Assembly (NCBI GenBank): GCA_028583605.1 | Contig: CM053329.1 | Location: 19,540,455-19,604,454, forward strand | Length of the DNA stretch: 64,000 nt | Direction of reading: 5' to 3' | DNA from: Dastarcus helophoroides | Lineage: Eukaryota; Arthropoda; Insecta; Coleoptera; Bothrideridae | Part shown: positions 6,593 to 63,100 of the stretch, piece after piece | How the letters are laid out: each line of letters opens with the position of its first letter | How positions within the stretch are numbered: the stretch's first letter is position 1 | Notes under the pieces: model-generated | Database searches by the model: none | The model's input: only the letters and a program-made list of their open reading frames with translations | Told to the model about the DNA's origin: nothing | Translations under genes and position numbers: made by a program

Positions 6593-6604
6593 AAATAATA
6601 ATAG
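6593..6604 (+). repeat. Target-site duplication, left copy (FB1-B)
   Basis: AAATAATAATAG, repeated exactly at 6857-6868. A neighbouring array unit near 7990-8010 carries the same word once, so it acts as the empty site. Confidence 0.85.
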
Positions 6605-6856
6605 TTGAAACACAGAACGTGTCCCCTGAAACCAAGAAAGATTAAAAAACACAACAGAGGTTGCTCTAACCCGTTTCGACAGCCAAGCTATCATCTTCAG
6701 AGAGAAGTAGTAGTAGTTTCTCTCTGAAGATGACAGCTTGGCTGTCGAAACGCGTTAGAGCAACCTCTATTGTGTTTTTTTATCTTTCTTGGTTTCAGGG
6801 GACAAGTTCTGTGTTTCAATTTTTGAAGATAACCAAGGACCAGTCCGTTCCATCAA
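6605..6856. mobile_element. FB1 foldback element, copy B (inserted in GA array)
   Basis: A 252-bp palindromic element. The left arm runs from TTGAAACACAG through CCCCTGAAACCAAGAAAG and GCTCTAACCCGTTTCGACAG to the centre near 6708-6717. The right arm mirrors it and continues about 30 bp further, ending CCAGTCCGTTCCATCAA. The left arm is therefore truncated relative to full copies. A 12-bp duplication flanks it, and other units of the host array lack it. It has no coding capacity. Confidence 0.9.
6720..6760 (+). ncRNA. Hammerhead-like core in FB1-B right arm
   Basis: CTCT, then CTGAAGA (fits C-U-G-A-N-G-A), one extra T, stem II GACAGC/GCTGTC with a TTG loop, GAAA, the self-complementary ACGCGT (its first A is the last A of GAAA), one T, then AGAG, which pairs with the leading CTCT. 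This is the order of a type I hammerhead with a minimal stem III. The unpaired T before stem II departs from the consensus. Activity is inferred only. The other arm carries the same arrangement on the minus strand. Confidence 0.45.
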
Positions 6857-9800: not shown

Positions 9801-11950
9801 AGAGGAAAGAAAGGAGGTAAAAAAAGAAGAAATAAGAGTAGAAAAGATGAGAAATAAGTATAGGACATCAGAAAAAGGAAGAAAGGGGGAGAAGATAGAC
9901 ATGAGAGAAGATATGATACGAGACTAAAAAGGAGAAAATAAAAGAATGGAAGCCAAGAAAGAGGAAGTGATTGCAAGAAATGGGAAGAAAGTGGAAATAA
10001 TGAAAGAAATGGGAAAAGAAGAAATTGAAATAGCAGAAGAGAGGAGAGGAAAGAAAAAAGAGTGTAGAAAAGAGGTAGGGGAAGAGTAGCCAAGAGTAAA
10101 GAATATACCAGATTAAAAAAGAAAATAAAAAAGAGATGAGGAAAAGTATAGAAGTTAACAGAAGAAACAGAAAGAGCCAATGAGAGAAGAGAAAAGAATA
10201 AGAGTAAAGAAAGGACTTAAAAAAAAGAAGAAATAAGAGTAAAAAAGATGAGAAATAAGTATAGGACATCAGAAAAGGGAAGAAAGGGGGAGAAGGTAGA
10301 CATGAGAGAAGATATGATACGAGACTAAAAAGGAGAAAATAAAAGAATGGAAGCCAAGAAAGAGGAAGCGATTGCAAGAAATTGGAAGAAAGTGAAAATA
10401 ATGGAAGAAATGGGAAAAGAACAAATTGAAATAGCAGAAGAGAGGAGAGGAAAGAAAAAAAGTGAAGAAAAGAGGTAGGGGAAGAGTAGCCAAGAGTAAA
10501 GTATATACCAGATTAAAAAAGAAAATGAAAAAGAAATGAGGAAACAGTATAGAAGTTAACAGAAGAAACCGAAAGTAAAGAAAAGAGATAAGGGAAAAGG
10601 AGACAAGAGTAAAGATGATACTAAATTAAAAAGAAAAGAAAACAGATGAGAGAACAAAAGAGAAGCTACGTGAACGGAAGAGAAGAAATTATATGAAATT
10701 AAACAAGATAATAAGAGATGAGACAGAATGAAATCAGATGAAAATATATAGAATAAGGTAAAAAGAGGGAGAAAAGATGAGAAAACTGGTAAGATTTTAA
10801 AATAGTTGCAAAGAGATAAGAAGAGTTGAAGAGAGCTTAGAAAGTTGAGTAGAGATACCAAGAGATTAGAAAAGCTGAGAATAGATGAGAAAAAAGAATA
10901 AGAAATTAGCAAAGATGAGAAGAGCTGAGGAGAAATAAAAATAAGTCAGAAAAGATAAAAAGAAAGAAGTAGAGGTGAGAAGAACTGAGAACAGCTAAAA
11001 ATAGATGAGTTATGATGCTAAGAAAAAATGAGGAAAGATGAAAATAGTGATCAGAAGTGAGGACAGATGAACAGAGATAAAAAGAAATGAGGAGAGATTA
11101 GCAAAATTGATAAGAGCTAATGACAGATAAAAATACATGATAAGACATGGGGATAAGCTGGAAGAGACAAAAAAAGGTGTTAAGGTGTGAGAAGAGATTA
11201 AAAAAGCTGAAAAGGGATAAAAAGGAATAAAAAAGTTTAAGAATAAATGAGGACATATGACCAAAATTGAGAAGAGATGAGGGAAGATGAGAAGAGCTAG
11301 AAAGAGAGAAAAGAAGAGATAAAAGGGACAAAAAGGAATAAAATAGTTTAAGAATAAATGAGGACAGATGACCAAAATTGAGAAGAGATAAGGGAAGATG
11401 AGAAGAGCTGGAAAGAGAGAAAAGAAGAAATAATAAGAGAAGAAATGGAAAACAGTGAGAAGAAATAAAGAGCGATGTGATAAGAGACCTTTTGAAATGA
11501 GAAGAGACGCTATAATATGAGAAAAGAAGATATGACCTGAGCTAAAAAGAGACGCGAAAAGAACAGATAATAAGGGAAGAAATGGGAAGAGATAAGAAGA
11601 AATAATAAGGGGTGAGAAAATATGATAAGAGATGATATAAGATGAGAAGAAATGCTGCGATATAGGAAGAGAAGATGTGGCCTGAGTAGACATGTAAAGA
11701 AATGAGAAAACGGTAGAAAAGATGAGTAGGGATGAGATGAGAAGAAACGAGGAGGGATGCAAACTGAAAAGAAGAAATAAGAGAAGAAAAGAAGTCGTAC
11801 AAAAAAAAGCAACAGCGAATTTTATTCTCTAATAGAAATTTTATTATTATTTTTTAATTTCTTTTATTAACTTTATCCTCAAAATCATAAATTTGTGGCG
11901 ATTTTACATTTTTTCTGAAATTTCGCCTTACAATTTGAACAATTTGAATT

Positions 11951-12171
11951 TTTTTTGGTGAAACGGACTGGTCCTTGGTTATCTTCAAAAATTGAAATAC
12001 AAAACTTGTCCCCTGAAATCAAAAAAGGTTAAAAAAACTCAACAAACGTTGCTCTAACGCAGTATCTCTCTGAAGATGACAGTTTAGCTGTCGAAACGCG
12101 TTAGAGCAATGTTTGTTTTGTTTTGTTTTTTAATCTTTCTTGGTTTCAGGGGACAAGTTCTGTATTTCAAT
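11951..12171. mobile_element. FB1 foldback element, copy C
   Basis: Starts with a T-run and GGTGAAACGGACTGGTCC and ends CTGTATTTCAATT. The left arm stops at GCTCTAACGC, so the centre is asymmetric. The right arm has an intact hammerhead-like core near 12066-12107 with stem II GACAG/CTGTC. Possible imperfect flanking repeat ACAATTTGAA / ACAATTCGAA. Confidence 0.8.
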
Positions 12172-21700: not shown

Positions 21701-24700
21701 TTTAATAATGATTTAACCTGGACTCATTTATTTTCAATTTAATGACTAAATAGCATCGACTTGATATTGAAGTAACGATGACTTGTGATGACCATTTGTC
21801 TTTTTTTACTTGTAATCTAAATTTAATGGCAATTAAATTATATTCAATTTAATGACGAAACAGCATCGATTAACAAAGTAAGGATTACTTATGATGACCA
21901 ATTTTTTTAACTTGTAATCAAAGTTTAATGACGTTTTAATATTGACTCATTTATTTTCAAATTAATAACGAAATAGCATCGATTTGATAACGAAGTAACG
22001 ATGACTTATGATGACCATTTATTTTTTCTTTAACTTGTATTCTAAATTTAATGGTGATTTAATGTTGAACCACTTGTTTTCAATTTAATGACGAAACAGC
22101 ATCGATTAAAGAAGTAACGATTACTTATGATGACCAATTTTTTTAACTTGCAATCTAAGTATAATGACGTTTTGACATTGACTCATTTATTTCCAATTTA
22201 ATAATGATATAGCATCGATTTGAGAATGAAGTAACGATGACTTATGATGACCATTTATTTTTTCTTTAACTTGTAATCTAAATTTAATGGCGATTTAACG
22301 TTTACCTATTTGTTTTCAATTTAATGACGAAACAGCATCGGTTAACGAATTAACGATGACTTATGATGACCATATTTTTAACTTGAAATCTAAGTTTAAT
22401 GACGTGTTAACATTGACTCATTTATTTTCAATTTAATGACGAAATAGCATCGATTTGATAACGAAACAGCGATGACTTATGATGACCATTTATTTTTTCC
22501 CTAACTTGTAATCTAAATTGAATTGTGATTTAATGTTGACCCATTTGTTTTCATTTTAAGGAAGAAACAGCATCGATTAACGAATTAACGATGACTTATG
22601 ATGACCATTTTTTTTAACTTGTAATCTAAGTTTAATGACGTTTTAACATTGACTTATTTATTGTCAATTTAATGACAAAATGGCATCGATTTGATAACGA
22701 AGTAGCAATGACTTATGATGACCATTTATTTTTTCTTTAACTTGCAATCTAAATTTAATGGCGATTTAATGTTGACCCATTTGTTTTCAATTCAAGGACG
22801 AAGCAGCATCGATTAACGAATTAACGATGACTTATGATGACCATTTTTTTAAGTTGTAATATCCTTTTAATGACGTTTTAACATTGACTCATTTATTTTC
22901 AATTTAGTGACAAAATAGCATCGACTTGATAACGAAGTAACGATGAGTTATAATGGACCATTTATTTTTTCTTTAACTTGTAATCTAAATTTAATGACGA
23001 TTTAATGTTAAACCATTTGTTTTCAGTTTAATGACGAAACAGCACGATTAACGAAGCAACGATTACTTATGATGACCAATTTTTTTAATTTGTAATCTAA
23101 GTTTAATGACAATTTAACATCGACTCATTTATTTTCAATTTAATAATGATATAGGATCGATTTGAGAACTAAGTAACGATGACTTGTGGTGACCATTTCT
23201 CGTTTCTTTAATTTGTATTCTAAATTTAATGGCGGTTTAATATTGACCCATTTATTTTCAATTTAATGACGTAATAGCATGACTTGTGATGACCATTTAT
23301 TTTTTCTTTAACTTGTAATCTAACTTTAATGTCGATTTAACGTTTACCCATTTGTTTTTAATTTACTGACGAAACAGCATCGACTAACGAAGTAATGATG
23401 ACCAAATTTTTTATCTTGTAACCTAAGTTTAATGAAGTTTTAACATTAACTTATTTATTTTTAATTTAATGACGAAATAGCATCGATTTGATAACGAGGT
23501 AACGATGACTTATCATGACCATTTACCTTTTTTTTACTTGTAATCTAAATTTAATGGCAATTTAACATTGGCCCATTTATTACCAATTTTATGACGAAAC
23601 ATTACCGATTAACGAAGTAACGATTACTTATGATGACCATTTTTTTTAACTTGTAATCTAAGTTAAATGACGTTTTAACATTGACTCATCTATTTTCAAT
23701 TCAATAATGATATAGCATGGATTTGAGAACGAAGTAACGATGACTTGTGATGACAATTTATTTTTGCTTTAACTTTTAATCTAAATTTAATGGCGATTTA
23801 ACATTTACCCATTTATTTTCAATTTAATGACGTAACAGCATCGATTAACTAGGTAACGATGACTTATGATGACCATTTTTTTAACTTGAAATCTAAGTTT
23901 AATGACGTGTTAACATTGACTCACTTATTTTCAATTTAATGTCGAAATAGCATCGATTTGATAACAAAGTAACGATGACTTATGATGACCATTTATCTTT
24001 TCTTTAACTTGCAATCTAAATTTAATGGCGATTTAACATTGACCCATTTATTTTCAATTTAATGACGTAATAGCATCGATTAACTAGGTAACGATGACTT
24101 ATGATGACCATTTTTTTAACTTGAAATCTAAGTTTAATGACGTGTTAACATTGACTCACTTATTTTCAATTTAATGACGAAATAGCATCGATTTTGTAAC
24201 GAAGTAACGGTGACTTATGATGACCATTTATCTTTTCTTTAACTTGCAATCTAAATTTAATGGCGATTTAACATTGACCCATTTATTTTCAATTTAATGA
24301 CGTAACAGCATCGATTAACGAAGTAACGATGTCTTATGATGACCATTTTTTAACTTGTAACCTAAATTTAATGACTATTTATCTTTATTTAACGGCGACT
24401 GATTTAACAGGGATTTGATATAGGAGATTTAATCACGATTGAAAATTGATTTGACAATAAGTTAGCGGGGATTTAACAACAGATTTAACTTCGTTTTAAT
24501 GACAATTTAACGGTGACCAATTTAACAAAAGCGTATTAAATTTAAAATCGATTTAATTATTTTTTAGGGGGAATTTGATGACAAAATAATATGAATTAAA
24601 CAGAGATTTAATCACAGTTTAACGTTAATTCATTTTAGGTTGATTTAATGACGTAGTAACGTTGATATAATGGCGATCTAGCTTCGATTTAAAGCCAAAT

Positions 24701-39322: not shown

Positions 39323-39487
39323 ATAAAATCAAAAATTTCAGAACAGAAGAAATTCCTCCAAAAAATACACCATGAAAATAAAAATTTTGGAAAAAATTTG
39401 AAATATTCAAGAAAACTAAAAATCCTAAAAGAAGTCAAAATTTTCGAACTTTACGAAAAAAAAAATAGAAATTGGAACAAAAAGTAA

Positions 39488-40455
39488 AAATCTTTGTTAA
39501 TTTTATTTAAAGAGTAGATTCTTGGAAAAAGTCAAAATTATAAAAAAAGTAGAAAGGAATTGTGAGCAGAAACTTTGACAAAAGTGTACAAAAAAAAATC
39601 ATAAGCAAAAATTTTCAATAACGTCGAAATTTTGCATAGTTTTTCAATAGTTAAAATTTTTGAAAGTTGAAATCGAAGATCAAAATTTTTATAATAATCT
39701 TTGTTTATTTTATTTAAAGAGTAGATTTTTGGAAAAAGTCAAAATTATAAAAAAAGTAGAAAGGAATTGTGAGCAGAAGTTTTGACAAAAGTGTACAAAA
39801 AAAAATCATAAGCAAAAATTTTCAATAACGTCGAAATTTTGCATAGTTTTTCAAAAGTTAAAATTTTTGAAAGTTGAAATCGAAGATCAAAATTTTTATA
39901 ATAATCTTTATTTATTTTATTTAAAGAGTAGATTTTTGGAAAAAGTCAAAATTATAAAAAAAGTAGAAAGGAATTGTGAGCAGAAGTTTTGACAAAAGTG
40001 TACAAAAAAAATCATAAGCAAAAATTTTCAATAACGTCGAAATTTTGCAGTTTTTCAAAAGCTAAAATTTTTGAAAGTTGAAATCGAAAATCAAAATTTT
40101 TATAATAATCTTTATTTATTTTATTTAAAGAGTAGATTTTTGGAAAAAGTCAAAATTATAAAAAAAGTAGAAAGGAATTGTGAGCAGAAGTTTTGACAAA
40201 AGTGTACAAAAAAAAATCATAAGCAAAAATTTTCAATAACGTCGAAATTTTGCAGGTTTTCAAAAATTAAAATTTTTGAAAGTTGAAATCGAAGATCAAA
40301 ATTTTTGTAATAATCTTTATTTATTTTATTTAAAGAGTAGATTTTTGGAAAAAGTCAAAATTATAAAAAAAGTAGAAAGGAATTTTGAGCAGTTTCTCAA
40401 AAATTAAAATTTTTGAAAGTTGATATCGAAGATCAAAATTTTTATAATAATCTTA
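39488..40455 (+). repeat. 205-bp tandem array, nearly five copies
   Basis: AATCTTTGTTAATTTTATTT or its variant starts near 39488, 39700, 39903, 40106 and 40313. Units share AAAAAGTCAAAATTATAAAA and GAATTGTGAGCAGAAGTTTT almost without change, so the array is young. The last copy has an internal deletion of about 100 bp. Confidence 0.9.
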
Positions 40456-42133
40456 AATATAAGAAAAAATTCAAGATTTCGGCTTTTTTCTCGAAAAATA
40501 GGCATTTATGAAGGTTTTGACTCTTCTCTAAATATTAATCTTATAGAAGTTTTGATTTGTTGTCCCACGTTTACCTAAGAATGTCGATTGCTCTCTAATT
40601 TCGTTTTTAATCGCAAAATTTTGAAATTTCCCTAAACAATTTTTTATTTTTTTTTTCCTAAAATTTCAATTTTTTTTCTCGAAACTTTTTTCAAGAAAAT
40701 TCGACATTCATCCCAAAATACCATCCTTGCTCAAGATTTTGGTTTTTCCCTCGATAGGATCAAAGTTCTTGACTCTTTCTCCAAATATTTATCTTATTTT
40801 GTAAATGTTCTCAACATTTCTACGTTTGCCTAAAAATGTCGATTTTTTCGCCAGTTTTGATCCCCTTTAATTTCGACTTGAAACGGAAAATTTGGTTTGA
40901 AAAAAAGAAGAAAATTTTCATTTTTTCACACAATTTCGTTTTCTTCTAATTTCGACTTCCCCATATTTTGACTTAAATAACAAAATTTTGTTCATTTTCC
41001 AAACAAAAAAAAAACCAAATCTCCATTTTTTCCCCAGAATTTCGATTTCCTCTAATCTGAGCTGTTATAACAAAATTTTGACTATTTTTTGAAAAAAAAA
41101 GAAGAAATTTTTATGCTTAAACTTGACATATTGATACAAAATAGTTTTAATTGTAATTGTTATAATGTTTCAATATGAAATCTTTTTTTTAATTAGAATT
41201 TATGTTTGAATTTAGATAAAGTTAAATGAACATTTTTAAATATTTAATTCGATAAATCCCAGAAAATTTCAAGACATTATTTTTGTTGAAAATTAATGTT
41301 TCAATATCGAATCTTTTTTTTTAATTAGAATTTATGTTTGAATTTAGATCAAGTTAAATGAAAATTTTTAAATGTTTTATACGATAAATCCCAGAAAATT
41401 TCAAGACATTATTTTTGTTGAAAATTAAAGTTGTTTCGAATCAAATATTTTTAGAAAAAATATGAGACTTTTACAAAAATTTTAACTGTTAACTTAAAAT
41501 TTGTTTTTTATATATAAAATTACAAATATAAGTTTTAAGATGAATAATTTAATTTTTTTTCTTACATCACGTTGATTGTATTTTTAAACTAAATCATAAA
41601 TTAAGTTTAAATTTTAAAATATTTGAGTAATTCTAAAAAATTTGAAGACATTTCTTTTTCTTGAAAAGCAAATTTCTGTTCAAACAATTTTTTTTAGTAA
41701 AATATCATTTTTTGATAGAAATTTCAACTTTTATCTTCAAATTTCTTTTTTATATATAAAATTACTTTAAATTTAGAGCTAAAAATTTCAATTTATTTTC
41801 CCATATATGTTAATACCTTATTTTTTAAACTAGGTCCCTAAGCTAAGTGTAAATTTTAAAATATTTGAAAATAAAAATAAAATTTGCAATTTCGATTTGA
41901 AATTTCCAGAAAATCGAACTGTTTATTTTCAAAACTGTGCATCTTTTCCTCAACATTTAGGCTTTAAACTTTCTATTCAAGTTATAGATTTTTATTAACA
42001 GCAGAATTTATATGAAATTTTAGGGAAAAGACGGATATTTTCCCCCAATTTTCATAAAAAGTTTTGCTTGAAATTTTTATTTGTTTCCTAGAATTGAGTA
42101 ACCCTTAAAAATATTATTTCTATGGATTTTAAC
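40456..42133. other. AT-rich degenerate sequence
   Basis: Diverged AAATTTCGA-like words. A 133-bp tandem duplication lies at about 41165-41435 (TAATTAGAATTTATGTTTGA in both copies). No gene signal. Confidence 0.5.
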
Positions 42134-42149
42134 TACATCTTTAAATTCT
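42134..42149 (+). repeat. Target-site duplication, left copy (FB2-1)
   Basis: TACATCTTTAAATTCT, repeated exactly at 42776-42791. Confidence 0.9.
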
Positions 42150-42775
42150 TCATGGTAGACCCTTATTGACCGGAAATATTAGGTTTTTTTCAATTTATTT
42201 AACATTTCTTCGGCCCAGTTTGGAAATATTTAAATTTTTCTGGTTTGTTGACAATTTTCTAAACAGTTTTTGAAATGCGACTACGTGATATTTAAATTTA
42301 TTGAAAACGTCACTTCATGACAGTTCACAAATTAAGAGGTTAGTTTATTTTACATAGAATAGGAGTAATTATTATTATTTTTCGTTTTTATATTTAAAAA
42401 AAAAATTATTTTTAAGTATTTCTTCCTCATTGTCCCTTTCCATGTTATGCACTGCTGACGAGCTCAAATGAGAGCGAAACATCAATGTCCAGTGCTACAA
42501 CCTTTTTATGTATTTTTTTATATTTTCCTAATTTATCAAAAAAACAAAATTTTTATTTTTTTTTCATATCTAATTTTTTGGTCTCCTATTATTCCTATTC
42601 TATGTAAAATAAACTAACCTCTTAATTTGTGAACTGTCATGAAGTGACGTTTTCAATAAATTTAAATATCACGTAGTCGCATTTCAAAAACTGTTTAGAA
42701 AATTGTCAACAAACCAGAAAAATTTAAATATTTCCATACTGGACCGAAGAAATGTTAAATAAATTGAAAAAAAAA
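42150..42775. mobile_element. FB2 foldback element 1 with central ribozyme
   Basis: A 626-bp element between 16-bp direct repeats. The left end is TCATGGTAGACCCTTATTG. The inverted arms are about 180 bp: 42185-42365 against 42590-42768, for example TGACAGTTCACAAATTAAGA and its complement. The right end lacks the outermost 30-odd bp present on the left. The 220-bp loop holds the ribozyme at 42444-42501 and TATTTTCCTAATTTATCAAA. It has no open reading frame, so it is non-autonomous. Confidence 0.9.
42444..42501 (+). ncRNA. Type I hammerhead ribozyme (FB2-1)
   Basis: Stem I GCACTG (42449-42454) pairs with CAGTGC (42490-42495), and an outer GTT/AAC (42444-42446 with 42499-42501) pairs across an internal loop. 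Core CTGACGA is at 42455-42461. Stem II GCTC/GAGC has a six-base loop (42462-42475). GAAA is at 42476-42479. Stem III is CAT/ATG with a two-base loop (42480-42487). TC at 42488-42489 completes the cleavage triplet GTC. Every conserved hammerhead core position is satisfied, and predicted self-cleavage falls between 42489 and 42490. Short stem III and an internal loop in stem I are typical of hammerheads in Penelope-like elements. Confidence 0.85.
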
Positions 42776-43246
42776 TACATCTTTAAATTCTGATTTTTCT
42801 TAATAAATACACTAGAAGGTTCAATTTTTACTCGAAATTTCGTAATTTCTTGAAAATTGTTTCGAAAAAATTCTTAGTAAAAATTTCGACCCCTTTCTAT
42901 ACAGAAAGTCTGTCGTTACAGAATTTTATTTTATTTTTTTCGAAATTTCTTTTTTTCAAGATCTTTAACTTTATTTAAGTGATATAGGAGAGATATATCG
43001 ACATATTTTTTCAAAAATATTTGTTACTGAAATGTGGAATTGGATCCAAAATTTTGGTTTCTGTTAACGAAATTTTTCTTCCAATTTCCATGTTTCTTGA
43101 AATTGCCACAGAAATCGAAAATTTGAAATTTAAATTCTGTTATCTTCTCCTCAATATATAGACCAAAAATTTAAAAACAAAACTTTTAAATTCTAATTTC
43201 ATCTTGAAATGTTAAGTCAAGAAATGTTAAGCTTAGGAGGTATTTT

Positions 43247-43262
43247 AGTCTTTGAATTTTGA
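43247..43262 (+). repeat. Target-site duplication, left copy (FB1-G)
   Basis: AGTCTTTGAATTTTGA, repeated exactly at 43441-43456. Confidence 0.9.
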
Positions 43263-43440
43263 TGGAACCTTGGTCCTTGGTTATCTTCAAAATTTGAAAT
43301 ACAGATCTTGTCCCCTGAAACCAAGAAAGATTAAAAAAGTATATCTCTGAAGATAATAGCTTGGCTGTCGAAAAGCCGTAGAGTAACCTTTGTTGTGTTT
43401 TTTAATCTTTCTTGGTTTCAGGGGATAACATTTGTATTTC
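43263..43440. mobile_element. FB1 foldback element, copy G
   Basis: 178 bp between exact 16-bp repeats. It starts TGGAACCTTGGTCCTTGG (a full left end, slightly shortened) and ends GGGATAACATTTGTATTTC, so the right end is truncated. The centre is deleted, so only the right-arm core remains (CTGAAGATAATAGC...GCTGTCGAAAAG), with mutations. Confidence 0.9.
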
Positions 43441-43653
43441 AGTCTTTGAATTTTGACTCTACTCTAATTTTTATAAAAAAATATTTTAAAAATTCTTACG
43501 AAAGTTTCATATTTTTATTTGAAGAATTTATTCTGAAGTAAAAGATACTTACTGTTGAACTGCTTTAACAAAATTTTAACTGAAGCTTTATTCCTTTCCA
43601 TTTTTTAAAAAATTATCAGTTATTGCCTAAAAATTTTAATCATAAACGTTTTG

Positions 43654-44245
43654 TTTTTTTCAATTTATTTAACATTTCTTCGGCTCAGTTTGGAAATATT
43701 TAAATTTTTATGGTTTGTTGTTTCTTGTGGATCGGGCTTCAAATATTTAAATTTTTACCACAGTAAATATTTAACACAGTAAATTGATGATGTTAAAATT
43801 TCTTTATTTTCCTTTTTTATATTTTAAAAAATTTTTATTTTTAAGTATTTCTTCCTCATTGTTCCTCTTCCATGTTATGCACTGCTGACGAGCTCAAATC
43901 AGAGCGAAACATCGATGTCCAGTTCTACAACCTTTTTTATGTATTTTTTATATTTTCCTAATTTATCAAAAAAACAACATTTTTATTTTTTCCACATCTA
44001 ATTTTTGGTCTCCTATTTTTCATTATTCCTATTCTATGTACAATAAACTAACCTCTTAATTTGTAAACTGTCATGAAGTGACGTTTTCAATAAATTTAAA
44101 TATCACGTAGTCGCATTTTAAAAACTGTTTAGAAAATTGTCAACAAACCAAAAAAATTTAAATATTTCCAAACTGGGCCAAAGAAATGTTAAATAAATTA
44201 AAAAAAACATAATATTTCCGGTCAATAAGGGTCTACCATGAAGAA
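43654..44245. mobile_element. FB2 foldback element 2 with central ribozyme
   Basis: A 592-bp copy between direct repeats CATAAACGTTTT (43642-43653 and 44246-44257). The right end is complete (GGTCAATAAGGGTCTACCAT). The left end starts inside the arm at GTTTTTTTCAATTTATTTAA, so truncation is on the opposite side from element 1. The left arm also diverges internally (GGATCGGGCTTC). Loop and ribozyme are conserved. Confidence 0.9.
43879..43925 (+). ncRNA. Type I hammerhead ribozyme (FB2-2)
   Basis: GCACTG / CTGACGA / GCTC-AAATCA-GAGC / GAAA / CATCGATG / TC / CAGTTC. Core, stem II and the GTC triplet are intact. Stem III is the self-complementary CATCGATG. Stem I keeps five of six pairs (CAGTTC instead of CAGTGC). 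Predicted cleavage falls between 43919 and 43920. Confidence 0.8.
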
Positions 44246-44257
44246 CATAAACGTTTT

Positions 44258-45338
44258 TTAAAGATAATTTATTTTAATTTTAATTTTAAATCGAGATTTA
44301 AAAATTATTGAAAATTCGGGCACAACATTTCGACTTTAGTTTTACAAAATGTAAGCTAAAGATTTGTCATTATTTTATAAGTTGATGCCTAGTTTGTAAG
44401 AGATTTCCAAACCACTTAAAATATTCTGTTTTTGGACATTCCAAATTCTTCTTGAAATAGCGATAGTTGTAGTTAAAAAACTTCCAAATTTTTGGAAAAT
44501 TTTTGTCGTATTAGTTAAATATGAATTTAACACTTTAACTACGGAAATATTTCCACAAAATTCTTCATGGAAACGCAAAAATAAATGATGAAAAAGTAAC
44601 CGTAAATGTTCTTTTAATAGGAACGTGGTTAGATATGATTTTATGACAGAATCGTCAAGAAGTGACACCCGATCCTGGTTTAATTTGTTAAATTGCTTAT
44701 TGACGAACCTCGACTCTCTTACAAAAGAGTGGCTGAGCCGCGTCATCTATTGATCACAGCCGTACTTAAAGGGTTAAAGATTATAGACTTTTAAAGTCGA
44801 AATAGGAAATTTCGAAAATTTTCAAAAGAAATTCACTTTTATAACATTAGATGATATAACGAGTAGGTACTAAAGATGAAAATTCTAAATTTTATGACAT
44901 TATATGATTTAAAACATCAGATAATGAAATGAACAAATTTTAAATTTTATGAAAGGGTTCTTTCCATGGCGAAAATTCAATCGGTGGCCCCCTTAATTTT
45001 TATTTAAATCTGTCTCGAGATTTATTCGAAACGAATTTTTACGTTAAACCTCGTGAAATTTCCATCCTTCATAATGTATGTCGCGCTGAAAACTTGAACG
45101 ATTAAGGTTAAATTTTAACATTTACCCTCCCTAACGCCTTTATCATCCTCAGTTCCGGATAGTTTGCTATCTAGTCTACCGCCATTAAGGGCGTTAATAT
45201 CGAATCTTTCAGTGACTGAAAAACCACTAATTTTGAATAAACTAAGCAAGGTGGGCCTTTCAAATTTTACCACATGATTACCCAGTCCCAAAAACGAATT
45301 AATCAACGATTTGATTTCTGAAAGACGTTGACGTAAAG
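44258..45338. other. Unassigned sequence with a 123-codon minus-strand frame
   Basis: Not visibly repetitive. The frame at 44375-44746 (minus) starts MTRLSHSFVRESRFVNKQF and has mixed composition. It is the longest frame in the window outside biased repeats, but I recognise no family, and no donor, acceptor or poly(A) signal is convincing. A second minus-strand frame lies at 45115-45378 (87 codons). Either could be a fragment of an old element or chance. Confidence 0.3.
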
Positions 45339-45652
45339 TGGTGGATGCGCCTCTGTAAAAGACGCATGTTCTTTGCAACGCTGAGAGCGCTCATTTTTAA
45401 TCCGGCGCATCCACCATTTCCACTTGGATGATCCCTTTATGATAATGATGTGTTATTAATCTGCATATTTAAAATTTTTGATTAAACTATAAAGTGTTAG
45501 GTTTTTGATACCGAATATTTGGTTAAATGCTTGTTCGTGTAGGCGCTACATTTAAAAGAAAATCGAAATACCGCATGCTTTCGATGTCACGTTTCTGTGA
45601 AATTACCGTTAAATTGCAAACTGGTAGAAATGGTAACCTGGCGCATCCACCA
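45339..45652. repeat. Cluster of TGGTGGATGCGCC motifs
   Basis: TGGTGGATGCGCC at 45339-45351 is followed by its inverse GGCGCATCCACCA at 45404-45416, forming a 13-bp inverted repeat with a 52-bp loop, and by CCTGGCGCATCCACCA at 45637-45652. The same word bounds the 260-bp repeat at 1.0-1.5 kb and occurs near 35.3 kb. Confidence 0.7.
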
Positions 45653-45797
45653 TTTTGTTGCAACGTATTTTTAAGCTGCCTAATTTTTTTCTAGCCTTCA
45701 AATATCAACTGCTGCACAATACTGCGTTTAACGACGCACTTGACAAGGTCTCTTAAGGAAAGAAATTATTATTATTTTTATTATAAGAAATTTTATT

Positions 45798-45872
45798 GTC
45801 TGCATTGTTCAGAAGTTCAATTTCAATCAAATAATTTTATTGAAATTGATTGAACTTCTGATCAATGCAGAC
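45798..45872. repeat. 75-bp hairpin-forming inverted repeat
   Basis: GTCTGCATTGTTCAGAAGTT...CAATTTCAAT pairs with GATTGAACTTCTGATCAATG...CAGAC over about 30 bp, with a short AT loop. It may be a small foldback element. Confidence 0.75.
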
Positions 45873-45879
45873 GTGGTTT

Positions 45880-46740
45880 CCTTCGAGCTACGTTAGGATC
45901 AGTTTGTGAAATTCGTGCTTCAGCTGATTGCTCAAACTGCTCTAAAAGAAATGACCCGAAATCCCACTCCGTTAATTAAAAAAGAGTCAAAGAGAGATAA
46001 TGGACCTTGTTACAAACTGATTAATTTGGTGGAGGTCGGGCCTCCTTTAAGACGCGATAAATAATAGACAAATGGTTGCGTCCATGCCGAGCTTTATCTG
46101 AAAGCAGCTGGCAAGCTGTCAGCCGCCTAGATTAGGGTCATGCAGGCTTATGGAGTGTCGGATGAAAGAGAGGGCGAGAGGGGTACCCGAGAGAACGTCA
46201 GCCTTTAGCGTATAGAACAAACAGCGGATTCGTCTCGCACTTAGGACAGGAACGAGGCTCAACCCTAATCCATTATGGCAGAGCGGGCTTAGCTTTCAAA
46301 ATTTAGAGTCCGGAGCAGACTTTTAAATCGGTCCGGATAAGGCTCCTTCGAGTGCCGAGCCAAATTTAAATGGTGGCGTACGTTTCACTTAGAAATCGCC
46401 CCGGTTTTAAATAAGCGAAAGAATGACGCGTCGATTTCGTCCTCTTGCCGCCGTTCCACATATTTCTGAAAATAAACCCGAGTCCGTCGCTATTTCCTTC
46501 GACCGAAAAAGCAGTCTATTGTTTAGCGGCAATAAAACCGACAAAAAAATTCTTTGTTGTTTTTATTATTCTTCGGTCGCAGTTCTTTGCGGCTCTCTCG
46601 GTCTGACCTCGTCTAAAGCGTTTGAAGGCCAACAAAAACTATTTCCCCGGCAATAAGTCTTCCAGCCGGACGGGATTCCTGTACGCTTTGAGGTGTGCAA
46701 CGTCCCGTGGTGCGATGCACTCTAAATTGCCCTTTTTAAA
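45880..46740. other. GC-richer unique region
   Basis: Clearly less AT-rich than the surroundings, with many CpGs. The + frame at 46423-46656 (77 codons, ATG start, MTRRFRPLAAVPHISENK) has no recognisable domain or supported splice sites. It could contain an exon or a regulatory region. Confidence 0.35.
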
Positions 46741-50530: not shown

Positions 50531-52990
50531 ATAACTAACCAAAAGTGAATGTGTCAAAGACAATGATGAAAGATTTTCCCTGATGGTTCTTGTTCTTCCG
50601 GAATAGAGCCAGAGAACCAGTGGCGGTGAAAAAAGAAAATATTATTGACCAGCTTTCGTTTTTCATTGAAATTTTGACCACCAAATGATTATTAAGGTGG
50701 ATCGATTGTGTCCAAATACAGATTAAGATGGCGTTGTGCTGTTTAGTTTCAAATCAAGATTCTGATTAATTTCGAGGGTCTCTAGCATAACCATTCGATA
50801 AGGTACAGTTGGCAGCTTCCTAGGCAACTGTCGCATACCATACCAAACGATATTTTTCGACAACCCCCCCTCCTAAAATGAAATCGGCTCCCGGGCCTTC
50901 TTGCCCCGTATATACCTGTCTGATTTGCCTTATGGATCCGCCACTAACCTTTGAGTACAAATTTTGACCACCAAGAATATCTACGAGTTGTAAAACGAAT
51001 TGATTCTTCTTGCACCCCTAAATACTTGCCTGGTGTGCCTTATGGATAACCTGACACTGATGAGAATTAATTTTTCGAAAATGTGACCACCAAGAACATC
51101 TACGAATTTCAAAATGAATCGATTTTAACTGGGTACACAAATAATAATAACAGGATAATATTTTTTGCCTAAAACAAAGTTTCAGACGAAGGTTTTGTTT
51201 AATTCTTCGGTTATCTGGTCAAACGACGATGCACAACTTAGAAAATTGGGTATCACATGAAGACAAAATTATAGTGGAAGAAGAAAATATTACTGATGAA
51301 CTTTCGTTTTTCATTGAAATTTTGACCACCAAAAAGTGGATTGATGGTACCCGAATACCACCAAATGATTACTCAGATGGATCGATTGTGTCCAAATATG
51401 TAAGATTATGATGCCGATGTGCTATTCAATATCAAATGAAGCTTCCGATTAGTTTCAAGAGTCTCTAGCAAAACCATTCAATAAGTTGAAGCTGAGAAAA
51501 ATGTTCCATATGAAGGCAAGTTTATAGTGGAAAAACAAAATATTAGTGATGAGCTTTCGTTTTACATTGTAAATTTCACCACCAAAAGACCAATTGATGG
51601 TACCCGAATACGTTGAATTACCAAAGCGATATCATATTCAGATTCAAACGAAGCCTCTGGTTGGTTTCAAGGGTCTCTAGCAAACCAAACAATTCGATAA
51701 GGTACATCTTGGAAAAATGTTCCACATGAAGGCAAAATTTTAGTGGAAAAAAAAGATGCTACTGATTGACTTCCGTTTCTCATTGAAATTTTGACCACCA
51801 AAAAGTGGATTAATGGTACCCGAATACCACCAAGCGATTATGCAGATGGATCGATTGTGTCCAAATAGTAAAATTATGATGGCGATCTGCTATTCAATAT
51901 CAAATGAAGCTTCCAATTAGTTTCAAGAGTCTCTAGCAAAACCATTCAATAAGTTGAAGCTGAGAAAAATGTTCCATATGAAGGCAAATTTATAGTGGAA
52001 AAAGAAAATATTACTGATGAGCTTTCGTTTTCCATTGTAATTTTCACCACCAAAAGATGAATTGATGGTGCCCGAATACGTAGAATTACGAAGACGATAT
52101 GCTTAAAGAGACAAACGAAGCCTCTGGTTGCTTTCAAGGATCTCTAGAATAACAAGCAATTCGATAAGATACATTTTGGAAAAATGTTCCACATGAAGGT
52201 AAAATTTTAGTGGAAAAAAAAGATGCTACTGATTAACTTCCCTTTTTCATTGAAATTTTGACCACCAAAAAGTGGATTAATGGTACCCGAATACCACCAA
52301 GCGATTATGCATATGGATCGATTGTGTACAAATAGTAAGATTATGATGGCGATCTGCTATTCAATATCAAATGAAGCTTCCAATTAGTTTCACGAGTCTC
52401 TAGCAAAACCATTCAATAAGTTGAAGCTGAGAGAAATGTTCCACATGAAGGCAAATTTATAGTGGAAAAAGAAAATATTACTGATGAGCTTTCGTTTTTC
52501 ATTGTAATTTTCACCACCAAAAGATATATTGATGGTGCCCGAATACGTAGAATTACGAAGACGATATGATAAAAGAGACAAACGAAGCCTCTGCTTGCTT
52601 TCAAGGATCTCTAGCATATCAAACAATTTGATAAGGTACATCTTGGAAAAATGTTCCACATGAAGGCAACATTTTAGTGGAAAAAAAAGGTGCTACTCAT
52701 CAACTTCCGTTTTTCATTGAAATTTTGACCACCAAAAAGTGGATTGATGGTACCCGAATACCACCAAGCGATTATGCAGATGGATCGATTGTGTCCAAAT
52801 AGTAAGATTATGATGGCGATGTGCTATAGAATTCCAAATGAAGCTTCCGATTAGTTTCAAGAGTCTCTAGCAAAACTCTTTGGTTTTGGTTCTTCTAGAA
52901 TGAAGGCTTTGGTTTTGGATCTTCTAGAATAAAGGCAAAAGCTTTGAGGAAACATGATTCTAAAACTTTTTCGGAATCACAGGTGAAGAA
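50531..52990 (+). repeat. Tandem array I with protein-like frames
   Basis: Two alternating unit types share GAAAATATTACTGATGAGCT and CATTGAAATTTTGACCACC. Type 1 continues AAAAAGTGGATTGATGGTAC, ACCACC and GGATCGATTGTGTCC. Type 2 continues AAAAGATGAATTGATGGTGC and ACGTAGAATTACGAAGACG. The copy at 51229-51411 is open for 60 codons with an ATG (VEEENITDELSFFIEIL, TKKWIDGTRIPPNDY) and runs into ATGTAAG, a donor-like site. Other copies carry stops in the same frame. The array may derive from a duplicated exon. No protein family is recognised. Near 50825-50945 a GC-rich piece ending ATCCGCCACTA resembles a hAT-type end. Confidence 0.7.
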
Positions 52991-55900
52991 ATCTAAAGAT
53001 TCCCCATCTATAAGTTATCAAAGATAATGATGAAATCTTTTCAACTTCCTGATGGTTCTTGTTTTTTGAGAGTAAACTCAGAGAAGTTTAAAGGGATATG
53101 TCTGCGAAATTTTTACCTTATCAAAAGTGTAGATACAGAATTGTTGAAGACGCTTTCCTTGACAAATATAGCGATGAAGAATTTTGCATCTTTTGGGGGC
53201 AAGTCTGCTTTTGAATCGTCGAAAATAAAGCCAAAAATTTTAAGGGAACCTGATTCTGAAGTGTTTACCTTTTCAGAAGCAGAGGTGAAAAACTGGAAGA
53301 ACCATTTGTTTCCAAAGATGATGATGAAAATTTTGCAACTTCGTGATGGTTCTTGTTCTTTTGGAATAAAGCAAAGAACTTTGAAGGACCATGACTGCGA
53401 AATTTTCACTTTCTCAGCAGTGAAGGTATAGGATTGTTAAAGACACCTGGTCCTTTCTTTGATAAATATATTGTTGAAGAATCTGGCACCTTCCTAAAGC
53501 ATCTCTCTAGTTCTAGATTCTAAATCTACCAAAATAATGCCAAAAATTTTTAAGGAACGTGATTTGGAAATGTTTACCTTTTCAGAAGTAGAAGTAAAGA
53601 ATTATAAAGCTGTACGAGTTATTTCGTTTCAAAAATCTAAAGCTCTACAACTTTCTGATGGTTCTTGTTGTTCCAGAATAAAACCAGAGAACTGTCAAAA
53701 AGCATGGCTGCAAAATTCTTATTTTGTTATCTCTCAGTTATGGGATTATTGAAGACACCTGAGTCTTTCATCAACAAATATCCTGATGAAGGATTTTGCG
53801 TCTTCTTGGAGCATCTCTTTGGCTTTGGATTGTTCAAAATAAAAGCAGTAGCTTTGAAGGAACGTGATTTGAAAATGTTTGCCTTTTCAGAAGCAAAAGT
53901 GAGTGAAGAATTATAAAGGTGTATGATTTATTCCTTTCCAAAAATGGTGATGAAAGATTTGGAACTTTTCGATGGTTTTTGTTGTTCCAGAAAAAAGCCA
54001 GAGAACTTTCAATAAACATGACTGCAAAATTTTTATTTTGTCCTCTCTCAGTTATGGGATTGTTGAAGACACCTGATTCATTAACAAATATCCTGATGAA
54101 GGAATTTGCACATTTTTGGAGCATCTCTTTGGCTTTGGATTTTTCAAAATAATAGCAAAAGCTTTGAATGAACGTGACTTGAAAATCTTTACCTTTTTAG
54201 AAGCAGAAGTGAAGAATTATAAATCAGTACGATTTATTTCTTTCCAAAAATGATGAAAGATTTGCTACTTTCTGATGGTTCTTCTTGTTCCAGAATAAAA
54301 CCAGAGAACTTTCAATAAACATGGCTGCAAAATGCTTATTTTCTCCTCTCTCAGTTATGGGATTGTTGAGACACCTAATCCATTCATTAACAAATATCCT
54401 GCTGAAGGACTTTGCGTCTTCCAGGAGAATCTCTTTGGCTTCGGATTTTTCAAAATAATACCAAAAGCTTTGAAGGAACGTGCTTTGAAAATCTTTATCT
54501 TTTTAGAAACAGAAGTGAAGAATTATAAAACTGTACGATTTATGTCTTTCCAAAAATGATGATGAAAGCTTTGCAACTTTCTTACGGTTCTTGTTGTTCC
54601 AGAATAAAACCATAGAACTTTCAATAAATATGACTGCAAAATTCATATTCTCTTATCTCTGTTATGGGATTGTTGAAGGCACCTGATCTTTTCCTTAACA
54701 AATATATTGATGAAGGACTTTGCATCTTCTTGGAGCATCTATTTGGTTTTGGATGTTCCAAAATAATAGCAAAAGCTTCGAAGGAGCGTGTTTACCTTTT
54801 CAGAAGCAGACGTGAAGGATTATAAAGCTGTACGATTTATTTCTTTCCAAAGATGATGATGAAAGGTTTGCAACGTCCTGATGGTTCTTGTTCTTCCAGA
54901 ATAAAATCAGAGAACTTTCCATAAACATGGCTGCAAAATTCTTATTTTCTTATCTCTCAGTTATGGGATTGGGGAAGACACCTGATCTCTTCATTAATAA
55001 ATATACTGACGAAGGATTTTGCATCATCTTGGGGCATCTCTTTGGTATTGGATTATCTAAAATAATAGTAAAAGCTTTGACGAAGATGATTTAAAAATCT
55101 TTACCTTTTCAGAAGCAGAAGTAAAGAATTATAAAGTTGTACGATTTATTCCTTTCCTAAAATGATGATGAAAGGTTGCAACGTTCTGATGGTTCTTGTT
55201 GTTCCAGAATAAAATCAGAAAACTTTCAATAAACATGGCTGCAAAATTCTTATTTTCTTATCTCTCAGTTATGAGATTGTGGAAGGCACCTGCCCTTTTC
55301 ATCAACAAATATACTGATGAAGGAATTTGCATCTTCTTGGAGCATCTCTTTGGTTTTTGATTTTCCAAAAAAATACCAAAAACTTCGAACGAACATGATT
55401 TTGAAATGTTTACCTTTTCAGAAGCAGAAGTGAAGGATTATAAAGCCGTATGATTTATTTGTTTCCAAAGATGATGATGAAACCTTTGCAACTTTCTGAT
55501 GGCTATTGTTCTTCCAGAATAAAGTCAGAGAACTTTCAATAAAGATGGCGGCAAAATTTTTATGTTCTCATCTCTGTTATGGGATTGTTGAAGACATCTG
55601 ATTCTTTCATTAACAAATTTACTGATGAAGGGGTTTTCATCTTCTTAAATCATCTCTTTGGTCATGGATTTTCAAAAATAACGCCAAAAACTTTGAAGGA
55701 ACGTGATTTTCATATGTTTACCTTTTGAGAAGCAGAAGTGAAGAGCTATAAAGATATATGATCTATTTTTTTAAAAGATGATGAAAACTTTGCAACTTCT
55801 TGATGATTCTTGTTCTTCCAGGATAAAGAACTGTCAGTAAATGTGGCTGCAAAGTTCTTATTTTCCAGGCTTTCAGTTAAGGGATTGTTGAAGACATCTT

Positions 55901-56050
55901 TCGTTAAAAAATATAAGGAATTTTTCATCTTCTTGGCGCATCTCCTTGGTTTTGGATCTTCAAAAATAAAAGCAAAAGCTTTGAAGGAACGTGATTTTGA
56001 AATGTCTACATTTTCGGAACCAGAATTGAAGAATTGTAAAGACAGATGAT
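52991..56050 (+). repeat. Tandem array II, about 320-bp units, protein-like
   Basis: Units share CTTTCTGATGGTTCTTGTT, GGCTGCAAAATTCTTATTTT, TCTCTCAGTTATGGGATTG, CTTGGAGCATCTCTTTGG and TTTACCTTTTCAGAAGCAGA. Landmarks recur about every 310-330 bp from about 53.0 to 56.0 kb. Each unit is itself two related halves. The frame through one half reads like FINKYPDEGFCVFLEHL...ALKERDLKMF and is preceded in most units by a pyrimidine tract ending TCTCTCAG. The longest open copy is 53027-53431 (134 codons). Most units carry stops or frame changes, so the array is at best a decayed exon array. A fragment of the same unit precedes array I at 50540-50620. Confidence 0.75.
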
Positions 56051-60499: not shown

Positions 60500-63100
60500 G
60501 ACAGGGTAGATTAAAATGAGTCAAGGTCAAGGTCATGCAATATGTTTAAGGTCATGTAAGAAGAATTGTCAAAGTCGCCTTTAATCAACGTCATATAGAC
60601 ACGAATTCACGTGATTCCAAAGTCACGTGAATTCAAGGTCACGTAGACTCAAAGTAAGTGACCTTGGACTCAAAGTAAACACGTATTTTATAAAAACATC
60701 ACATTGTCCTTAAGACTTTGATAATATTCGTTGATCTAACTAAATGCCTAAAACTCAAAAGACCGATTTTTCTTTCGAAAATTAAAATTTTGACTTTTAC
60801 TTCGAAGCTTCTTCACTTTCTAAATCTCCAAACAAAGACAAGGTTACGGTAGTCTAGTCTAACATCACGTTAGATGATGCAAGGCCAAGCTCATATATAC
60901 GTTCAAGTTAACGCGAGGGCAAAGATGAAAGTCGCCTGGAGTAAAAGTTAAAAACTCACTTCAATTCAAGGTCACGTAAGTTCAAGGTCACGTGAGTTCA
61001 AGGTCACATGAGTTCAAGATGACACAGTCCTAAGATCACATGAGTTCAAAGCCACGTGATCTCACGCTTATGTGGGTTAAAGGTTTTGTAGTGAAGATCA
61101 CGTGAACTCAAGGTAACATGAGTTTCAGAGCATGTAAGTTCAAGATCACGTAAGCTCAAAGTTATGTGAATTTACGGTCACGTTCCGTCAAGCGTGAGGT
61201 CGTTGTTACGTTAGCTCAAAGTCATCTCACTTTCTGATTACGTTAGATCAACGTCTCTTGTGTTCAAGGTCACGTGAGCTCAAGGCCACCTGGTCTCACA
61301 GTCATATAGGTTACCTGGATAAGGCCACTGACTGGATATAGTGATCCGACTTTCAGGATTACGTTAGATCCACGTTTCATGTGTTCAAGGTCACGTGAGA
61401 TCAAGGCCACCTGGTCTCACATTCCTATAGGTTACCTGGGTAAGGTCACTGACTGGGTAAAGTCATCTGACTCTCAGGATTACGTTAGATTAACGTCTCG
61501 TGTGTTCAAATTCACGTGAGCTCAAGGCCACCTGGTTTCACAGTCATATAGGTTGCCTGGGTAAGGCCACTGACTGGGTAAAGTCATCTGACTTTCAGGA
61601 CTACGTTAGATTAACGTCTCGTGTGTTCAAGGTCACGTGAGCTCAAGGCCACCTGGTCTCATAGTCATATAGGTTACCTGAGTAAGGCCACTGACTGGCT
61701 ATAGTGATCTGACCTTCAGAATTACGTTACATCTACGTCTCGTGTGTTCAAGGTCACCTGGTCTCTGATCTCTGATCTCTCTCTGATCTCTAACTGTGGT
61801 CTCACAGTCATAAAGGTTCCTGGGTAAGGTCACTGACTGGGTAAAATCATCTGACACTCAGGATTACGTTAGATCAACGTCTCGTGTGTTCAAGGTCACG
61901 CGAGTTCAAGGCTACCTGGTCCCACCTTACCAGGGTAAGGTCACTGACTGGGTAAAGTTATCTGACTTTCAGGATTACGTTAAATCAACGTCTCGTGTGT
62001 TCAAGGTCACGTGAACTCAAGGCTACCTAGTCTCACAGTCATACTGGTTCCTGGGTAAGGTCATTGACTGGGTAAAGTCATCTGACTTTCAGGGTTACGT
62101 TAGATCAACGTCTCGTGTGTTCAAGGTCACGTGAGCTCACGGCCACGTGGTCTCAAAGTCATATAGGTTACCTGGGTAAAGTCACGTGAGCTCAAAATCA
62201 CGTGATCTCACAGTCATGTGGGTCTAGGTTTACGTGGTTAAGATCACGTGAGCTCAAGATCACATGAGTTTGAGGTTATGTAAGTTCTAAATCATGAAGG
62301 TTCAAGATCATGTAAGCTCAGAGGCATGTGAGCTCAAGATCACGTCCGGTCAAGCATAAGATCAGAAACACGCGAGCTCAAACTCGTCTGACTCAAGATT
62401 ACGTTAGCTTTAAGTCGTGTGTGTTTAAATTCACGTTAGTACGAAGTGACATGCGATCAAGGTCGAAAAAAGTCAAGGTCACTCAAGTTCAACGTTATGC
62501 AAGCTCAAGGTCATGTAAGTTCAACGTTATACTATCTCAAGGTCATGTGAGTTTAACCAACTTGATTTCAAGGTAATGCAAGATCAAGTGGTAAATCAAG
62601 GTCACATGATATCAAGGTCATGTCATCTCAAGGTCGTGATCTGAAGGTCGCGCGATGTCAAGGTCGCGCGATCTCAAGGTCGCGCGATGTCAAGGTCGCA
62701 TGATCTCAGGGTTATGTGATCACAAGGTCGCGTGTCTTCAAGGTCGCGCGATCTCAAGGTCCCGCAATCGTAAGGTCGCATGATCTCAGGGTCGTGTGAT
62801 CACAAGGTGGCATGATCTCAGGGTCGTGTGATCACAAGATCGCGTGCCTCCAAGGTCGAGCGATCTCAAGGTCGCGCGATTTCAAGGTCAAGCGATCTCA
62901 AGGTCTGACCTCAGGCTCGTGTGATCACAAGGTCGCATGATCTCAGGGTCGTGTGATTACAAGGTCGCGTGCATCCAAGGTCGCGTAATCTCAAATTCAT
63001 ATGAACTCAATGTCACGTGAACTCAAGGTCACATGAACCCAATATCACGTGAACTCAGAGTCGTGTAAAAGCAAGGTAGCGTGAGGCAAAAGGTTCTCTT
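60500..63100 (+). repeat. TCAAGGTCACGTGA array
   Basis: Dozens of copies of a 12-19-bp word, TCAAGGTCACGTGAGCTCAA and variants. It combines TCAAGGTCA with CACGTG. Three zones exist: irregular short units (60.5-61.2 kb), a 120-bp higher-order array (61.23-62.16 kb), and a CpG-rich zone with CAAGGTCGCGCGATCT (62.6-63.0 kb). Confidence 0.9.
61235..62160 (+). repeat. 120-bp higher-order units in the AGGTCA array
   Basis: GATTACGTTAGATCAACGTC (or a close variant) recurs near 61235, 61360, 61479, 61600, 61720, 61862, 61973 and 62093. Each unit also carries CAAGGTCACGTGAGCTCAAG, GGTTACCTGGGTAAGGTCAC and TGACTGGGTAAAGTCATCTG. A CTCTGATCTCTGATCT microsatellite interrupts one unit near 61760. Confidence 0.85.

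Follow-up and report, generated by a model that had tools for sequence, protein, structure and literature searches.

A two-copy, non-coding foldback element with a type I hammerhead motif in its loop and ends laid out like those of Penelope-like elements

Between two long inverted repeats in a stretch of Dastarcus helophoroides DNA lies a sequence that resembles a self-cleaving hammerhead ribozyme, and the locus raises the question of whether this motif is genuine and, if so, what kind of element carries it and how that element might move. The stretch analysed here, 64,000 nucleotides in length and referred to throughout as the window, is AT-rich, apparently non-coding and rich in tandem repeats. 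The motif belongs to the first of two copies of the element (copy 1):

42444..42501, + strand, type I hammerhead motif of copy 1 (RF02275, 40.4 bits, E 7.8e-7; descriptor match; pair list)

Written out by segment, the motif reads GTT-AT-GCACTG-CTGACGA-GCTC-AAATGA-GAGC-GAAA-CAT-CA-ATG-TC|CAGTGC-TAC-AAC, and it combines the CUGANGA, GAAA and UH core with three stems and is open at stem I. Stem I comprises 6 bp, distal to which lie an internal loop (AU/UAC) and then possible GUU/AAC pairs, and stem II comprises 4 bp. For stem III the initial annotation of this DNA had paired CAT with ATG, which would leave a loop of 2 nt; a more realistic form has the pairs A15.1-U16.1, C-G and A-U closed by a UCAA loop. 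Cleavage is predicted from the layout of the motif at 42489/42490, the same site that had been named before. The two sides of the stem I internal loop, UUA and UAC, match the HH9 consensus, and their letters are consistent with a tertiary loop contact, although they are no proof of one.

A search with the Rfam hammerhead models had been proposed as a check on the motif, and it yielded a full-length match that stays under the curated score. The best model for copy 1 was RF02275 (Hammerhead_HH9), aligned over positions 1-77 of 77 with 40.4 bits and an E-value of 7.8e-7 in a cmscan search of the 64 kb, or 9.2e-9 when the search space was 751 bases. At the gathering score of 52 bits there are no matches in the window, the two copies of the element reaching 40.4 and 33.8 bits. 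HH9 was described as an intronic hammerhead of amniotes, and the match does not imply orthology with copy 1. In the same Rfam search microRNA models also gave sub-threshold matches in AT-rich hairpins (mir-582, 43.4 bits, E 1.7e-5; mir-551, E 0.00029), and the E-value of mir-582 is lower than that of the copy 2 hammerhead (1e-4). Because microRNA models attain such low E-values in the same AT-rich window, the Rfam E-values alone are not decisive, and we therefore made a model-free control with a strict type I descriptor (stem I of at least 5 bp, CTGANGA, stem II of 4-7 bp, GAAA, stem III of 2-6 bp, UH). The descriptor had a single match in the window, at 42455 in copy 1, and none in 300 first-order Markov random windows searched on both strands.

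Judged by its sequence, the stretch at 42444-42501 is thus confirmed as a real, well-formed type I hammerhead motif, and the original assignment of such a motif to the loop of a foldback element is borne out by the core, the stems, the RF02275 match and the descriptor. It had also been called a textbook case, a word that is a little strong for a motif with a weak stem III (2-3 bp with a tiny loop) and an Rfam score below gathering.

The element around the motif has the following parts:

42134..42149, no strand, left target-site duplication (TSD) of copy 1, TACATCTTTAAATTCT, the last 4 letters of which (TTCT) may belong to the element (microhomology)
42146..42183, + strand, tail of copy 1, 38 nt, on the left side only, matching the inverted right end of copy 2
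42184..42369, + strand, left inverted arm of copy 1, 186 nt, 98% complementary to the right arm
42370..42587, + strand, loop of copy 1, 218 nt, bearing the ribozyme motif
42588..42773, - strand, right inverted arm of copy 1, tail-less, ending in an A run (42767-42775)
42776..42791, no strand, right TSD of copy 1, TACATCTTTAAATTCT

The arms of copy 1 (42184-42369 and 42588-42773), each of 186 nt, are 98% complementary with 218 nt between them, and the inverted arms of 180 bp described previously are thus real. The longest stop-free stretch of copy 1 is only 63 codons, and the accompanying statement that the element has no coding capacity holds as well. The hammerhead core words CTGA and GAAAC are absent from both strands of the left arm and tail of copy 1.

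The placement of a hammerhead in a foldback loop stands, but it is no lone oddity: a second copy of the element occupies 43653-44245, 1.43 kb away, and we are therefore dealing with a repeat family. The initial annotation had overlooked this copy and its hammerhead, as well as the direct repeats and the tail, and had not settled what the element is. The parts of the second copy are as follows:

43641..43652, no strand, left TSD of copy 2, CATAAACGTTTT
43653..43720, + strand, left arm of copy 2, outer part only, tail-less, identical to copy 1 at 65 of 67 positions
43874..43931, + strand, hammerhead motif of copy 2, core intact, one stem I pair broken, identical to copy 1 at 55 of 58 positions
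44022..44207, - strand, right inverted arm of copy 2, 178 of 186 aligned letters the same as in the copy 1 right arm, with 5 gap columns
44208..44245, - strand, tail of copy 2, 38 nt, on the right side only, inverted relative to copy 1
44246..44257, no strand, right TSD of copy 2, CATAAACGTTTT

Over 604 aligned columns the two copies are 83% identical, the inner left arm of copy 2 having been replaced by about 80 unrelated nucleotides (43721-43803). RF02275 matched copy 2 at 43870-43942 (33.8 bits, E 1e-4, below gathering), and the strict descriptor has no match there because stem I has a mismatch. The 3 of 58 hammerhead positions that differ between the copies are in loop II, in loop III and at the pair-breaker of stem I, and the cut in copy 2 is predicted from the motif at 43919/43920. 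All core positions are intact in both copies, and the adjoining loop has diverged by 8-13% with indels. In plain counts, however, the hammerhead (55/58) is not clearly better conserved than the other parts of the element (60/69, 75/82, 178/186 and 65/67), and we would infer no selection from its conservation. No further copies were found in the window by nhmmer with both copies at E-values up to 1. Across the border between right arm and tail of copy 2 (44186-44242), an ATG opens, by eye, a frame of 18 codons that ends within the tail; the pLTRs of Penelope-like elements (PLEs) likewise include an ORF start (PMC3846280, in excerpt).

Each copy is bounded by its own pair of direct repeats, two TACATCTTTAAATTCT (16 bp) around copy 1 and two CATAAACGTTTT (12 bp) around copy 2. 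Since the last 4 bases of the copy 1 duplication are also the first 4 of its tail, its TSD is 12-16 bp long, compared with 12 bp in copy 2. As a control, pairs of 20-nt flanks were drawn at random from 40001-46000 and matched at any offset; 5 of 4000 such pairs shared at least 12 bp, and none of 4000 shared 16.

The 38-nt tail, TTCTTCATGGTAGACCC..., flanks the left arm of copy 1 on its outer side; in copy 2 the reverse complement of this tail is found beyond the right arm. The outer 36 nt of the two tails are identical, and a single position differs among all 38 (35/35 letters in an alignment of two stretches cut one base out of step), and the 23-nt core of the tail occurs exactly twice in the window, at 0 mismatches, against a mean of 0.00 in 100 shuffles. 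At the opposite end of each copy, which has no tail, the A (or T) run of the arm lies no more than 1-2 nt from the border of the element, and the TSD adjoins directly. Both copies have end points in common to within 1-2 nt, TTCTTCATGG... and ...GAAAAAAA. Judged from these ends the copies are the same object reversed, whereas judged from the ribozyme they point in the same direction. Because each copy has a direct repeat of its own, the two look like independent insertions; tandem duplication as the origin of copy 2 was ruled out on the same ground and by the confinement of the match to the element.

Folding predictions were made for the ribozyme RNA of both copies. Stems I and II had pair probabilities of at least 0.93 whether the RNA folded was the ribozyme by itself, the loop, the element or the element with its flanks; the values were 0.00-0.02 for stem III and 0.12-0.20 for the outer GUU/AAC pairs, neither of which the energy model favours. 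A rival fold pairs GAC with GUC. The hammerhead fold of copy 1 has -11.6 kcal/mol where the best fold has -14.1; for copy 2 the two values are -8.5 and -8.6 kcal/mol. The folding energy of a 66-nt stretch was unremarkable (z -1.61), 14 of 200 shuffles folding at least as well. Given that the energy model ignores the tertiary core, the modelled folding energies neither show nor exclude activity. The stem III strand of copy 2, ACATCGATGT, is a perfect palindrome and could be compatible with hammerhead dimers, which have been described where helix III of a type I ribozyme is weak; many such animal ribozymes cleave better as dimers (PMC7761336, in excerpt). In the dimer of best energy predicted for the copy 2 ribozyme the 10-bp palindromic helix forms and hammerhead stems I and II do not, and the corresponding dimer of copy 1 is not a hammerhead dimer.

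Searches for relatives of the element by blastn gave no match to phages or to plasmids, and exact scans of viral contigs for an arm 21-mer and a tail 23-mer returned 0 each. The stem II/core pattern was found in 1 stretch of the viral contigs and in 2 of the bacterial assemblies. The viral stretch (L001:999-1057, IMG/VR) was rejected as a relative, since it reads, by eye, as a type III hammerhead that has a similar stem II but a different architecture. Within the window, 82 ORFs (the 93 that passed a length and complexity filter minus 11 removed by hand) contained 0 Pfam families at an E-value of 0.01, a scan that short or broken fragments would escape; in a set of 10 ORFs searched at E-values up to 1, the 4 weak matches (E 0.035-0.34) were all below the cut-off. 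No tRNA genes were found in the window with the bacterial code.

Several other features of the window were noted. A dispersed, partly palindromic repeat is present in 9 copies, at 4467(-), 6674(-), 6722(+), 12068(+), 30430(-), 30472(+), 30631(-), 43345(+) and 63335(-). Its hairpin, CTCTGAAGAT-GAYAGC-TTG-GCTGTC-GAAACGCGTTAGAG, is kept by eye in 7 of the 9 and resembles the hammerhead words CTGANGA and GAAA, with an extra base before the hairpin; the Rfam hammerhead models gave no match at these copies at E-values up to 1. One such hairpin is contained in a 53-nt inverted repeat (89%, with 59 nt between its arms) at 43286-43450, between the two hammerhead elements. From 6001 to 12000 the strand is purine-rich with a very strong skew (GC skew about 0.6, AT skew 0.5-0.66), and most of this stretch is made up of tandem repeats whose period is about 376-396 bp; long-period tandem arrays are located at 21701-24381, 39485-40392, 51254-52876, 53153-56041 and 61218-62185 (about 235, 207, 467, 308 and 121-242 bp, respectively). 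The mir-582 match at 45795-45872 (43.4 bits against a gathering score of 84, E 1.7e-5) is probably a chance AT-rich hairpin.

Animal type I hammerheads are found in non-LTR retrozymes with TSDs, for which PLEs are strong candidate movers (Cervera and de la Pena 2020, PMC7229834, in excerpt), and it was reasonable to compare the element with both. Like the metazoan non-LTR retrozymes described in that excerpt, it is small, non-coding (as checked by ORFs on copy 1), free of LTRs and low in GC, with a type I hammerhead and TSDs of more than 4 bp, and it shares with them a presumed mobilisation by a non-LTR or PLE reverse transcriptase. On the other hand, metazoan retrozymes carry the hammerhead in tandem repeats of 150-450 bp (PMC7229834, in excerpt), whereas here it is single, in the loop of a foldback with 186-bp arms and a one-sided tail; the window contains two separate elements with one hammerhead each and no tandem hammerhead repeats. 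The SMalpha and W elements of Schistosoma, which are SINE-like retroposons or satellite-like units, likewise have a type I hammerhead, and differ from the present element in that long inverted arms are unmentioned for them in the excerpted account (PMC8490949).

The comparison with PLEs, which likewise draws on excerpts of the papers cited, concerns mainly the ends. PLE insertions are flanked by TSDs and bear inverted repeats of some 190 bp, one of which may be extended outwards by a tail of 30-40 bp (Arkhipova et al. 2013, PMC3846280), and PLE reverse transcription has two start sites flanking the 30-40-bp tail (PMC11167929). With its 186-bp inverted arms, one-sided 38-nt tail and direct repeats the element is PLE-like at its ends, by layout only. 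Hammerheads occur in PLE terminal repeats (PMC6431247, PMC7761336, PMC11167929), the PLE hammerhead being of the minimal kind and sited in the pLTR (PMC11167929, PMC7761336). The element differs in that no hammerhead core was found in the left arm and tail of copy 1, in that its loop hammerhead has a weak helix III, unlike the minimal PLE kind, and in that it has no ORF for a reverse transcriptase with GIY-YIG (63 codons at most in copy 1, and 0 Pfam families in the 82 ORFs of the window). We do not claim PLE membership, because the arm is without a hammerhead core and no PLE domain was found in the scanned ORFs; what we propose is that the element behaves as a PLE does at its ends. Unrelated sequences captured between solo pLTRs with TSDs have been described (PMC3846280), and the element would fit a derivative of this sort, the captured sequence being here the hammerhead-bearing loop. 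The equal inverted termini of foldback/MITE elements are not present, the tail being one-sided in both copies. In the open-access literature, as excerpted and among the matches listed, we found no description of a hammerhead in the loop of a foldback element, although this is weak evidence that none exists. Retroelements with type I hammerheads are a known kind, and the element is not a new one; the single hammerhead in a foldback loop is a variant.

We regard the two copies as members of a family of non-coding elements of about 590-630 bp that are, slightly more likely than not, non-autonomous retroelements which combine PLE-like ends with a hammerhead of the retrozyme sort and are copied from either strand. 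The combination of a one-sided tail with inverted arms of about 190 bp and direct repeats favours PLE-like termini over a DNA foldback transposon. A foldback or MITE transposon moved by a transposase, whose loop captured a retrozyme or PLE hammerhead as a passenger, would account for the long, near-perfect inverted arms (98% over 186 nt) and for TSDs of a constant 12 bp if the TTCT of copy 1 belongs to the element, and a second, partly palindromic repeat family is present in the same window; we nevertheless consider such a transposon rather unlikely, given that each copy has the outermost 38 nt at a single end, which is not the same end in copy 1 as in copy 2, and that the TSD directly abuts the end without a tail; a transposase that binds the repeats at both termini would presumably require these termini to be equal. 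Improbable in our estimate is a degenerate retrozyme, a single unit left over from a tandem array with type I hammerheads and mobilised by a LINE or PLE, in which the arms would be the paired rod of a circular RNA. The weak stem III, low GC, lack of LTRs and of coding capacity and TSDs of more than 4 bp are as stated for metazoan retrozymes, and the arms would indeed pair as a rod in a circle, but each element in this window has one hammerhead without tandem copies, its length of about 600 bp compares with repeats of 150-450 bp, and a reverse-transcribed circle with one tail should not give tails of opposite orientation.

The preferred reading, of a non-autonomous retroelement with PLE-like ends, has points against it as well. 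Flipping of the loop in place explains the opposite orientation equally well, and two copies are few; repeats of 12 and 12-16 bp would also fit the fixed 12-bp stagger of a DNA transposase; and one hammerhead per element, an arm without its core words, the lack of Pfam families in the 82 ORFs, the low pair probabilities of stem III and the outer GUU/AAC pairs, the 14 of 200 shuffles that fold as well, the stem I pair lost in copy 2 and a ribozyme not clearly better conserved than the other parts all speak against it. Compatible with any of these readings of the element is an inert hammerhead, a captured or ancestral hitch-hiker without a role in movement, which we take to be a serious possibility though short of an even chance: the stem I pair of copy 2 is already broken, and a PLE hammerhead was dispensable for insertion in vitro (PMC11167929, in excerpt), yet every core position has stayed intact in both copies despite the 8-13% divergence and indels of the adjoining loop. 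It is extremely improbable that AT-rich hairpin DNA matches the hammerhead consensus here by chance; while the Rfam score of the motif is below gathering, other sub-threshold Rfam matches look spurious and its folding energy is ordinary, the 300 random windows contained no descriptor match, the model match is full-length, and the core is kept in a second, independently inserted copy.

If the element is a retroelement with PLE-like ends, the copies would have arisen through target-primed reverse transcription; the reverse transcriptase, from a PLE or of a similar type, would recognise the arm ends, start or stop at the A run or at the tail end and so leave the tail at one end. The arms being inverted repeats, transcripts of both strands would offer the same ends; the tails lie on opposite sides of the ribozyme, and the copies would therefore have come from opposite strands, or else the loop was later flipped by recombination between the arms. 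A ribozyme-sense transcript would be cut at 42489/42490 into halves that the long arm duplex would hold together and that could be re-ligated. Both ribozymes have the same orientation and are 1,430 bp apart (42489 to 43919), and from a transcript that spans the pair, an RNA of 1,430 nt could be freed, its ends fit for ligation; this RNA, lying between two cut sites, might be circularised as in retrozymes. Antisense transcripts, being without the ribozyme, would stay whole as templates. More tentatively, and with the odds in our view against it, the element may be a PLE-mobilised foldback retrozyme, one that borrowed PLE repeats and tail as symmetric arms so that either strand could serve as template, with the loop hammerhead singling out one of the strands to be cleaved and circularised.

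A repeat family with defined ends is more interesting than a lone motif. The mover of animal type I hammerhead elements is unproven, with PLEs suspected (PMC7229834, in excerpt), and an element in which a retrozyme-like hammerhead occurs together with PLE-like ends and tail would allow this suspicion to be tested within one genome. The strand logic suggested here, with sense RNA cut and antisense RNA whole, could allow a self-cleaving element to keep full-length templates. If true, a PLE-mobilised foldback retrozyme would be a structural link between the animal retrozymes and their suspected PLE movers.
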